Assembly: GCF_900104805.1 (NCBI RefSeq)
Contig: NZ_LT629751.1
Coordinates: forward strand, 2,647,001 to 2,711,000
DNA: 64,000 nt
Source of the DNA: Pseudomonas oryzae
Lineage (GTDB): Bacteria > Pseudomonadota > Gammaproteobacteria > Pseudomonadales > Pseudomonadaceae
Direction: 5' to 3'
Shown here: positions 12,709 to 14,612 of the stretch, in pieces
Position numbering within the stretch: position 1 is the first letter of the stretch
Layout of the letters: every line of letters starts with the position of its first letter
Program-made: the position numbers and the translations under genes
Notes under the pieces: generated by a model
What the model saw: only the letters and a program-made list of their open reading frames with translations
Told to the model about the DNA's origin: nothing
Database searches by the model: none

Positions 12709-12780
12709 AATCAAGTTCCTCAGGTTTCGTTTCCACGTTTGTGGGCTGTAGGCCCGAACAAGCCTGCGCAACCTGATCGA

Positions 12781-12796
12781 TGCAGCGTCTGTGCCA
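12781..12796 (-). promoter_or_regulatory. Sigma-54 promoter of nifHDKTY
   Basis: The minus strand reads TGGCACAGACGCTGCA, with GG and GC at the correct 11-base spacing, as in known nifH promoters. Transcription should start near 12770, leaving a leader of about 60 bases before nifH. Two NifA-type sites lie about 100 and 170 bases upstream. Confidence 0.92.
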
Positions 12797-12896
12797 GCAC
12801 CGAAAACAACTCATAAGTCATTGATTTAAATCGAATAAATAATACTCACCGGGGCATTCCGAGCGGTTCGATACACAACAAAGGCCTCTCGCGCCA

Positions 12897-12912
12897 TGTG
12901 CCAATGGCGACA
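12897..12912. promoter_or_regulatory. NifA upstream activator site (TGT-N10-ACA), proximal
   Basis: TGTGCCAATGGCGACA fits the NifA binding consensus exactly. It is about 100 bases upstream of the nifH -24 element and may also serve the divergent gene at 13148. Confidence 0.85.
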
Positions 12913-12966
12913 ACCCAACAAACTTTTCCGTGGTTCGCAAAGTTCGCCAGCGAGCCGCACTCGGCC

Positions 12967-12982
12967 TGTCGCGAATACGACA
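12967..12982. promoter_or_regulatory. NifA upstream activator site (TGT-N10-ACA), distal
   Basis: TGTCGCGAATACGACA fits the consensus exactly and has good dyad symmetry. It lies between the two divergent sigma-54 promoters, about 170 bases from the nifH -24 and about 110 from the 13090 element. A near-copy in inverted orientation occurs at 13070-13086 (TTGTCGTATTCCCGCGA), but it has lost the exact spacing. Confidence 0.85.
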
Positions 12983-13089
12983 ATTGTCGCTGCGCTACTT
13001 GGCTTTTGTTATTTACGGGAAACTCCTCGACTACCAACACGGCAAATAAATTCATTGCGCATCAATGAGTTGTCGTATTCCCGCGAAAC

Positions 13090-13105
13090 TGGTTCGGATA
13101 TTGCG
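13090..13105 (+). promoter_or_regulatory. Probable sigma-54 promoter for the divergent SIR2-like gene
   Basis: TGGTTCGGATATTGCG keeps the invariant GG and GC with exact 11-base spacing but departs from consensus at positions 4-5. It is 43 bases before the GTG start at 13148. With the shared upstream NifA sites, it suggests co-regulation with nifH. Confidence 0.6.
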
Positions 13106-13147
13106 TCAGTGCCGGCGAGCAACGCCTTATTCCAGCGGGAGAGTCCA

Positions 13148-14017
13148 GTGAACAGCACTTCCATTGAGGAAATCCTCGCCCAACTCGGCAGCGGCGATAT
13201 CGTTCCCTACCTGGGCCCCGGCGTCCTGCGCGGGGTGGTCGATCGCCTCAGCGGCAAGCCGATCCCGGCCGACAGCGACAGCCTGATCCTCGCCATGACC
13301 GGCGGCCAGCCGATGTCGCCACGGCTGATGTACGAGTTCCCGCGCGCCGCCATGCATCTGGAGAACAAGAAGGGCCGCAGCTACATCGAGCGCTTCCTGA
13401 CCCAGACCTACGCCAGCGACCACTGGACGCCGTCGCCCTTCCACCAGTGGCTGGCCGACCAGCGCCTGCCCTACGTGATCGACTGCAACCGCGATACCCA
13501 GCTGCAGCGCTGCTACGCCGACCGCGCCCACACCCTGGTGGTCGGTGCCGCGCGCATCGCCGCCACGCCCTATCGCTTCGACCTCTACCAGTTCGACGCC
13601 GGCCACTACCGCGCGATCGAGCTGGCCGAGGTCGACGCCGAGCTGCCGGTGCTGTTCAAGCCGCTCGGCACGCCGCTGCCCCGGCCCGGCTACGTGGCCT
13701 CGGACGCCGACTTCGTCGACTACATCACCGAGCTGATGGGCGGCTTTGCGGTGCCGGCCTGGCTCAAGCTCAAGCGCAAGAACAAGCGCTACCTGTTCCT
13801 CGGCATGCGCTTCAACCGCGACACCGAACGCATGGTGATGAGCGACCTGATCCACGACGCCGCCCCGGCGGCCGGCTGGGCGCTGATCGGCGCACCGAGC
13901 GAGAAGGAGAGCAAGGTCTGCGCGCGCAAGCACCTGCAACTGATCGATGCCGACTGGAGCCGCCTGTTCGCCCTGGCCAACCCCGAAGCTGCCGCCGACA
14001 CCGTGCGCGTGGCCTGA
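13148..14017 (+). CDS. SIR2-like domain protein divergent from nifH
   Basis: This 289-residue soluble protein looks like a SIR2-like (Rossmann, NAD-binding) domain protein. An N-terminal GSGDIVPYLGPGVL resembles the first nucleotide loop. A central PVLFKPLGTPLPR stands where SIR2-like proteins have a K-L-H-G-type motif, followed by DADFVDYITEL. A late YLFLGMRFNRDTERM matches the family's final strand and helix. It starts at a GTG at 13148 with GGGAGAG upstream. It is probably expressed from a NifA/sigma-54 promoter and precedes another unknown gene by 28 bases. The domain call is by eye. An enzymatic NAD+-consuming or regulatory role in nitrogen fixation is only inferred. Confidence 0.65.
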   Translation: MNSTSIEEILAQLGSGDIVPYLGPGVLRGVVDRLSGKPIPADSDSLILAMTGGQPMSPRLMYEFPRAAMHLENKKGRSYIERFLTQTYASDHWTPSPFHQWLADQRLPYVIDCNRDTQLQRCYADRAHTLVVGAARIAATPYRFDLYQFDAGHYRAIELAEVDAELPVLFKPLGTPLPRPGYVASDADFVDYITELMGGFAVPAWLKLKRKNKRYLFLGMRFNRDTERMVMSDLIHDAAPAAGWALIGAPSEKESKVCARKHLQLIDADWSRLFALANPEAAADTVRVA

Positions 14018-14045
14018 ATCCCTTGATCAACGAGAGAGCCTCACC

Positions 14046-14612
14046 ATGCTGCTGAAAACCTACGAAGAGAAGAACCTGCTGTGCAACCTGAGCGTCAACG
14101 GCGCCACCAGCCAGGCCGACACCTATGCCTACCGCGGCGACCTGGTGCTGACCGAGGGCGAGGTCGCCGACGACGCCGGCCGCCGCCTGCCGCCGACCGC
14201 GGTGGTCAAGCAGGCCACCGTGCTGGTCAAGGGCGACAAGCTGGCCATGGTCAGCGGCATCCTCAGCCACCTGGCCGAGGTGCCGCTGTTCGTCGAGCGC
14301 TACCGTCACGACCTGGCCGCCGACATCCATGTGCTGTTCTACGTCGAGGACCTGACCAAGTCGCTCACCACCGACCTCGACGGCGTCGGCATCATCCTGC
14401 TGCCGCACCCGGACGGCGGCGCCGCCTGGCAGACCCTGATGGACGACCTGCGCCTGGACAAGGACGACTTCAAGGGTCAGAGCGCCGAGGACAAGGTCAT
14501 CACCATGGCCGCGGGCCTGGCCGACTACCACCCGAAGTTCGACAGCCTGAGCTTCGAGCAGTGCCTGGCCTTCGTCAGCACGGTCAAGCGCGAGCACCGC
14601 GGCCCGGTCTGA
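14046..14612 (+). CDS. Unknown protein in putative NifA-regulated operon
   Basis: This 188-residue soluble protein starts MLLKTYEEKNLLCNLSVNG. It has a strand-rich first half and an acidic, helical second half (DLRLDKDDFKGQSAEDKVI). No membrane segment, signal or cysteine cluster is present. The ATG at 14046 has GAGAG upstream, 28 bases after the SIR2-like gene, so both form one operon. An intrinsic terminator follows at 14657. I do not recognise the family. Its position beside nifH, divergent and behind nif-type promoter elements, suggests a nitrogen-fixation accessory function. Confidence 0.7.
   Translation: MLLKTYEEKNLLCNLSVNGATSQADTYAYRGDLVLTEGEVADDAGRRLPPTAVVKQATVLVKGDKLAMVSGILSHLAEVPLFVERYRHDLAADIHVLFYVEDLTKSLTTDLDGVGIILLPHPDGGAAWQTLMDDLRLDKDDFKGQSAEDKVITMAAGLADYHPKFDSLSFEQCLAFVSTVKREHRGPV

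Follow-up and report, generated by a model that had tools for sequence, protein, structure and literature searches.

How nitrogenase is switched or protected after its synthesis in bacteria without DraT is a standing question, raised for Pseudomonas stutzeri A1501 in PMC2820453, which describes on-off switching of the enzyme in that strain without DraT or DraG. The same question arises at a locus of Pseudomonas oryzae, in a stretch of 64,000 nucleotides (NZ_LT629751.1, positions 2,647,001 to 2,711,000; hereafter the window), where nifH is faced by a divergently transcribed gene pair, gene 1 and gene 2. A first-pass annotation of the window proposed that gene 1 encodes a SIR2-like protein under NifA/sigma-54 control, that DraT is absent, and that the pair is a possibly undescribed nitrogenase control device linked to nicotinamide adenine dinucleotide (NAD). 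The absence of DraT held: no match to DraT (PF07357), the only one of the DraT/DraG pair sought there, was detected in the window genome, although among 29 genomes the search was positive in 11. Here, we report that gene 1 is the counterpart of pnfA, a gene already described, and that its product, by sequence and predicted structure, belongs to a SIR2 clade found almost only in nitrogen-fixing genomes and mostly bereft of the SIR2 catalytic histidine.

Gene 1 is the counterpart of pnfA

In A1501, pnfA (PST1325) lies divergent from nifH behind a −24/−12 promoter with a TGT-N10-ACA site, and is listed together with PST1324 (PMC2820453); the window pair has the same nifH-divergent position, the same promoter type and the same kind of partner gene. 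A Stutzerimonas stutzeri protein (locus L021) is 82% identical to the gene-1 protein. On position, gene order and this identity, rather than on a direct comparison with the A1501 sequence, gene 1 is the counterpart of pnfA; gene 2, by position and order, is likewise that of PST1324. With gene 1 corresponding to pnfA and a mutant published, the suggestion that the pair was undescribed has to be given up.

The A1501 study supplies the functional background. Expression of pnfA requires nifA and rpoN, as measured by quantitative reverse-transcription PCR, and nitrogen fixation induces PST1325 9.7-fold and PST1324 26-fold (PMC2820453). A non-polar pnfA mutant, described for A1501 only, retains 23% of nitrogenase activity at 0.5% O2 and is complemented, while nifH is transcribed as in the wild type (PMC2820453). 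The activity of the mutant is wild-type-like under argon and far under that of the wild type when nitrate is the acceptor (PMC2820453). Homologues are listed in P. azotifigens, A. vinelandii, Azoarcus BH72, Dechloromonas and Halorhodospira (PMC2820453).

PMC2820453 proposes for PnfA a similarity to UspA/ETF and not to SIR2, whereas a SIR2 fold is assigned here. The SIR2 nature is already in print as an annotation, since PST_1325 appears as a SIR2 family protein in PMC11332353 and the M. loti relative is called sirtuin-like in PMC3538637. Our searches of the open-access literature found, among the hits consulted, no analysis joining pnfA with draT, hemerythrin or sirtuin function, except PMC8600466. 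Within those searches, three things appear to be new: a SIR2 clade that is almost confined to nif genomes and has lost a catalytic residue, the draT/hemerythrin neighbourhood, and a putative private sigma-54 element behind draT.

An almost nif-only SIR2 clade

Homologues lying mainly away from nif genes were what the first-pass annotation had named as evidence against a nitrogenase role, and they proved rare. Among 274 gammaproteobacterial genomes (in the GTDB sense, the window genome included), nifD was found in 26, gene 1 in 24 and both in 22; gene 1 is thus present in 22/26 nifD-positive and 2/248 nifD-negative genomes (Fisher p = 3e-26, relatedness ignored), with one match per matching genome at E values up to 0.001. 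The nifD-positive set consists of 25 genomes over the cut-off and one with the gene in two pieces (G294); six genomes with weak, sub-cut-off matches were counted as negative. One of the two exceptions, G134, is 81% complete, and its gene 1 (L102) adjoins a nifH matched at 95% identity; the other, G218, has a weak match, 25% identical, that is probably a generic SIR2 protein. Among 240 alphaproteobacteria, gene 1 occurs in 5 of 8 nifD-positive genomes (over the cut-off) and in 0 of the 232 others, or in 4/7 and 0/232 without G328, a genome picked for having gene 1.

Genomic context was taken from the best 80 of 574 relatives, a set that overlaps the gammaproteobacterial sample in part, is biased to close relatives of the window protein and to its own sequence type (type A), and is not phylogenetically independent. 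Core nif genes lie within the extracted stretch in 64 of these 80 loci; for the other 16, nifD in the genome is over the cut-off in 12, present as partial pieces in two, represented by a weaker homologue only in one, and absent in one. All seven plasmid loci examined, out of 72 records with a match, lie in nif clusters. In a tree built from 23 type-A, 11 type-B and 13 generic SIR2_2 sequences, type B is the sister group of type A and the two group together apart from the generic proteins (100/99), among which branches are long. By these comparisons PnfA belongs to an almost nif-only SIR2 clade.

A predicted SIR2 fold with a degenerate active site

The AlphaFold model of the gene-1 protein, made with 55 sequences, has a predicted local distance difference test score (pLDDT) of 92.4 and a predicted template modelling score (pTM) of 0.91. 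Its top structural match is KomC (9v0g; Z 18.8, root mean square deviation 3.3, 241 aligned residues), with BcThsA (8btp, Z 18.7) and DSR2 (8z18, Z 17.5) close by and sirtuins at Z of about 12–13. The predicted fold is clearly that of a SIR2 (Rossmann-type) protein, which bears out the first-pass reading. Profile searches are less emphatic for the single protein: Pfam SIR2_2 scores 19.8 bits on it, under the 24.5 cut-off, and NCBIfam gives no match, while 50 of 50 aligned family members match SIR2_2 at E values up to 0.01 (best, 5e-21).

When the family is aligned with HMMER, its N-R-D sits on the T-N-Y-D of KomC and DSR2. At the position of the catalytic histidine (K-x-H-G), the 48 type-A rows hold methionine (24), leucine (18), histidine (2), threonine (2), alanine (1) or valine (1), and the seven type-B rows hold leucine (6) or tryptophan (1); four further type-B rows, from plasmids, keep the histidine in three cases. 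The residue is therefore absent from 46/48 type-A and 8/11 type-B rows, with Leu173 in its place in the window protein. Generic SIR2_2 proteins from related genomes have it in 12 of 13 cases; because these 13 were kept out of 15 loci by a T/S/C-N-Y/F/W-D motif, counts of the asparagine and aspartate in them are circular, and the histidine count is not. The asparagine of the SIR2 site (T-N-x-D motif; Asn114 in the window protein) is kept in 48/48 type-A rows and is tryptophan in 7/7 type-B rows and in all four plasmid rows. Asparagine and histidine occur together in 2/48 type-A and 0/11 type-B rows. Several residues of the old active-site motifs are nonetheless invariant, namely G23, D116, and P172 and G174, which flank the lost histidine.

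Sirtuin deacetylases of the CobB type carry a four-cysteine zinc site, which is impossible in the window protein since it has three cysteines only (113, 122 and 258). Given that the catalytic histidine is missing from nearly all type-A rows and most type-B rows, consumption of NAD+ by PnfA is unlikely. PnfA is alike in fold to the phage-defence NADases KomC, ThsA and DSR2 (Z 17–19 over ~240 residues), but its catalytic histidine is replaced, and it is nif-linked, not defence-linked.

A conserved NifA/sigma-54 promoter

The divergent arrangement of the pair beside nifH, the sigma-54 element at 13090 and a terminator of its own at 14657 had all been claimed earlier, and we recovered them as open reading frames, an exact motif and a stem. 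Since both motifs occur at chance frequency (three sigma-54 matches against 3.2 expected per window; seven NifA matches against 5.5), position and conservation carry the weight. In 11 of 12 loci, the window locus among them, a GG-N10-GC element ending in TTGC stands ~57–71 bases before gene 1 and a TGT-N10-ACA site lies at about −168 to −183 from the gene; the twelfth, L014, has the same pair moved upstream. Six of the 12, again with the window locus, have a TGT-N10-ACA site between about −251 and −255 from gene 1. In the 32 loci whose nifH is directly divergent, a sigma-54 element lies 25–110 bases from gene 1 in 26 and a TGT-N10-ACA site is present in all 32. Mononucleotide shuffles, made for these 32 loci with BLAST-hit ends as gene boundaries, gave means of 1.0 loci with a sigma-54 element and 0.1 with element and NifA site together.

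NifA/sigma-54 control of the pair, as first proposed, is supported by this conservation and, for the P. stutzeri counterpart, by experiment (PMC2820453). Both NifA-type sites, 12897 and 12967, match exactly, as had been stated; the idea that both serve both promoters is weakened, because their spacing of ~100 and ~107 bases from the respective sigma-54 elements suggests one site per promoter, 12897 for nifH and 12967 for gene 1.

draT and hemerythrin genes beside pnfA

Recurrent neighbours in the 80 loci were collected by clustering and named from the Pfam match of a single representative per cluster (DraT, PF07357, E 5e-105; hemerythrin, PF01814; DraG, PF03747). A divergent nifH lies within 2.4 kb of gene 1 in 49 loci. 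In 17, draT precedes gene 1 in the same orientation at up to 1.3 kb, 11 of them at up to 450 bases, with nifQ in between in four of the 17 (L064, L074, L081, L089). A hemerythrin gene follows gene 1 within 320 bases in 28 loci, the order draT–gene 1–hemerythrin is found in eight, and draG lies anywhere in the stretch in 14. The class-wide sample contains eight genomes with both draT and gene 1; draT lies ahead of gene 1 on the same strand by ~0.2 kb in three of them (G139, G180, G238) and by 1.1 kb in a fourth, G087.

In the 11 loci with draT within 450 bases (L033, L048, L049 and L056 among them), a sigma-54 element lies 47–61 bases before gene 1, inside the draT–gene 1 gap, in every case, a count made without shuffle control; the gap also holds a NifA-type site in 7/11, and the same pattern found no sigma-54 element between nifH and draT in these loci. 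This arrangement bears on Azoarcus BH72, for which co-transcription of draT had been proposed with azo0536 and dcrH1, by gene order and name probably a PnfA homologue and a hemerythrin. In RNA sequencing of this strain the two genes downstream of draT were raised and draT itself was not; the study suspected that a second promoter was at work (PMC8467165); a sigma-54 element in the draT–pnfA gap could explain the pattern.

PnfA is by Pfam not a DRAT-family protein. What it would share with ADP-ribosylation by DraT/DraG is a post-translational layer of control, draT lying close beside pnfA in some lineages; it differs in its family and in occurring in the window genome, with no DraT detected. 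The early hunch of NAD-linked control fares unevenly: the gene neighbourhood lends it support, with draT shortly ahead of gene 1 in certain other lineages, but NAD+ consumption is unlikely with the histidine lost.

Two further proteins recur near gene 1. A 4Fe-4S/cysteine-rich-domain protein (Fer4_8 and CCG) is found in 12 of 100 clustered stretches, often near gene 1 (L032:10848-12203, L058, L059, L070, L082, L149). A small DUF1289-like, cysteine-containing protein is encoded directly after gene 1 in eight of the 80 loci (L072, L075, L083, L084, L086, L087, L090, L095), its Pfam match being sub-cut-off for the single representative checked.

Type-B relatives

The type-B sequences compared here are 21–27% identical to the window protein and have tryptophan where type A has asparagine; several of their genes lie downstream of nifB, nifZ or nifT. 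We infer from description and position that Rcc03262 of R. capsulatus, msi351 of M. loti and ZMO1821 of Z. mobilis are of this type; with the rhizobial 'SIR2 family protein' encoded after nifT, they resemble PnfA in being SIR2-like and in nif operons. Rcc03262 is reported as undetected in an R. capsulatus nifA double mutant (PMC6925177), and ZMO1821 as raised under nitrogen fixation (PMC8600466) in a species for which, according to PMC8600466 and PMC8594446, no draT or draG had been identified. The acetylome study that reports this induction supposes a deacetylase role for ZMO1821 and lists NifA, NifH and NifK as acetylated (PMC8600466). In four of eight type-B loci (L112, L113, L115 and L117 out of L112–L119), and in L002 (19353–19980), genes for a 2Fe-2S ferredoxin and for a small protein of ~93 residues without a Pfam match precede the type-B SIR2 gene.

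A model for PnfA and its alternatives

Taken together, these observations lead us to a tentative model, in which the ligand, the target and the sensor role are what we infer: PnfA may be a degenerate sirtuin without enzyme function that senses NAD or ADP-ribose and keeps nitrogenase working during respiration. The protein would be produced, along with the gene-2 product, from a NifA/sigma-54 promoter of its own, and would most likely act after transcription. Its old NAD/ADP-ribose pocket would probably serve as a sensor, the ligand being bound and not consumed, as a SIR2 fold without the catalytic histidine yet with invariant active-site residues suggests. In this state PnfA might sustain nitrogenase activity, at the Fe protein NifH or at its NADH-fed supply of electrons, during respiration of oxygen or nitrate; given the adjacency of draT in some other lineages, it may belong to the same post-translational layer of nitrogenase control as DraT. 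We favour a sensor because the post-transcriptional, respiratory effect of the mutant coincides with a degenerate SIR2 site and with a gene order that includes draT and an oxygen-binding protein. A bolder form of the model, a pseudo-sirtuin that reads NAD+/NADH or ADP-ribose as a second post-translational nitrogenase control, beside DraT/DraG or in their place, we regard as doubtful; if true, it would account for the on-off switching of A1501 without DraT.

Several findings weigh against a sensor of this kind. The strongest is the full symbiotic effectiveness of an M. loti msi351 mutant (PMC3538637); perhaps type B has drifted, or nodules can do without the type-B protein. Under argon the A1501 wild type, too, has much lower activity, so that wild-type-like activity of the mutant there may be a floor effect, and on nitrogen-free semisolid medium the mutant is still able to grow (PMC2820453). 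Gene 1 is missing from 4/26 nifD-positive gammaproteobacterial genomes (G112, G123, G231, G248) and from 3/8 alphaproteobacterial ones (G363, G440, G476). The presence of gene 1 is not positively associated with that of draT (8/11 draT-positive and 15/16 draT-negative nif genomes, p = 0.27), and the adjacency of the two could just reflect that both sit beside nifH. Lastly, the histidine kept in three of four type-B plasmid rows and the asparagine kept throughout type A leave some chemistry possible.

In one alternative, which is the published proposal without its UspA/ETF analogy, PnfA assists nitrogenase as an accessory in electron delivery or in protection from oxygen, its SIR2 fold a mere scaffold with no NAD-type ligand. 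A phenotype that appears with oxygen or nitrate as the acceptor, hemerythrin-type genes within 320 bases after gene 1 in 28/80 loci, ferredoxin and nifT genes adjoining type-B members, and a degenerate active site are all in line with such an accessory, but the draT neighbourhood is left unexplained and the invariance of G23, D116, P172 and G174 suggests a site still in use, and on balance we think it rather unlikely. An enzyme that consumes NAD+ (as NADase, deacetylase or ADP-ribose transferase) and works on nitrogenase or its regulators, a possibility that the first-pass annotation raised, seems improbable to us. Its closest SIR2 folds are NADases, the asparagine is constant in type A, the histidine survives in 2/48 type-A and 3/4 type-B plasmid rows, and ZMO1821 is raised under nitrogen fixation in a species with acetylated NifA, NifH and NifK (PMC8600466). 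The histidine place is, however, leucine or methionine in 42/48 type-A rows, histidine being absent in 46, and the type-B asparagine place is tryptophan throughout. Three cysteines, moreover, are too few for the zinc site of a deacetylase.

PnfA could also mediate the switching of A1501 directly, as a protein-protein inhibitor or release factor. That strain switches without DraT/DraG (PMC2820453), the window genome yielded no DraT match, and in certain other lineages pnfA is linked to draT by gene order; yet the pnfA mutant loses activity instead of gaining it, and a pure inhibitor is unlikely because the published mutant shows PnfA to aid nitrogenase activity. We hold a direct mediator to be quite improbable. 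Scarcely credible is a chance neighbour or leftover defence gene in the nif region. The SIR2 relatives do include anti-phage NADases, but the family forms a single clade apart from generic SIR2_2 proteins (100/99), and the published mutant phenotype contradicts this explanation; we rejected a defence gene on the almost nif-only distribution and on PADLOC, which gave no match.

PnfA is a concrete candidate for the post-synthesis question posed by strains without DraT: it is almost confined to nif genomes, its published mutant has a strong phenotype, its SIR2 fold lacks the catalytic residue, and its gene has draT or hemerythrin neighbours in other lineages. The gene may also be of consequence where nif clusters are transferred to new hosts without pnfA.

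Gene 2 and layout of the locus

Gene 2 was modelled with confidence (pLDDT 92.0, pTM 0.87) and matches no Pfam or NCBIfam family above cut-off, with an NCBIfam match below it only. A fold search of solved structures returned nothing close (best Foldseek E 0.013, best Z 3.6), which is not proof of a new fold, and no gene 2 was found in viral contigs. It is present in 9 of the 274 gammaproteobacterial genomes, all nine nifD-positive, and among the 80 loci it follows gene 1 directly in 12 and lies elsewhere in the stretch in seven more. The co-induction of PST1324 with pnfA and this nif linkage suggest that gene 2 encodes a helper in the same process.

Features of the pnfA locus in the window
Feature	Position	Strand	Remarks
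nifH, followed by nifD and nifK	11827..12708	-	293 residues; divergent neighbour; start at 12708
nifH sigma-54 element (CTGGCACAGACGCTGCA)	12781..12797	-	
NifA-type upstream site, TGT-N10-ACA	12897..12912		exact match; ~100 bases from the nifH sigma-54 element
NifA-type upstream site, TGT-N10-ACA	12967..12982		exact match; ~107 bases before the gene-1 sigma-54 element
gene-1 sigma-54 element (TGGTTCGGATATTGC)	13090..13104	+	exact match
gene 1, pnfA counterpart	13148..14017	+	289 residues; predicted SIR2 fold; GTG start; Leu173 at the SIR2 catalytic histidine place
gene 2, PST1324 counterpart by position	14046..14612	+	188 residues; nif-linked protein; ATG start; confident model
intrinsic-terminator-like stem and T-run	14657..14678	+	after the gene pair

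The spacer between nifH and gene 1 measures 439 bases and holds both sigma-54 elements and the two TGT-N10-ACA sites; 28 bases separate gene 1 from gene 2. Terminator-like sites numbered three in a 4-kb scan against 2.1 in shuffles, and no Rfam match to an RNA element was obtained at 12600-14900. A single-sequence search of solved structures returned only two chitinase chains (E 0.9). Directly past the gene-2 terminator, at 14665-15011, lie copies of a unit of ~107-111 bases whose arms, GTAGGGTGCGC...GCGCACCCTAC, are palindromic. In P. stutzeri, the interval between PST_1323 and PST_1324 is reported to contain direct repeats (PMC4174501). Further exact TGT-N10-ACA sites in the window stand ahead of nifB (two, at 32675-32724; nifB at 32931) and ahead of nifL (one, at 29115; nifL at 30195).

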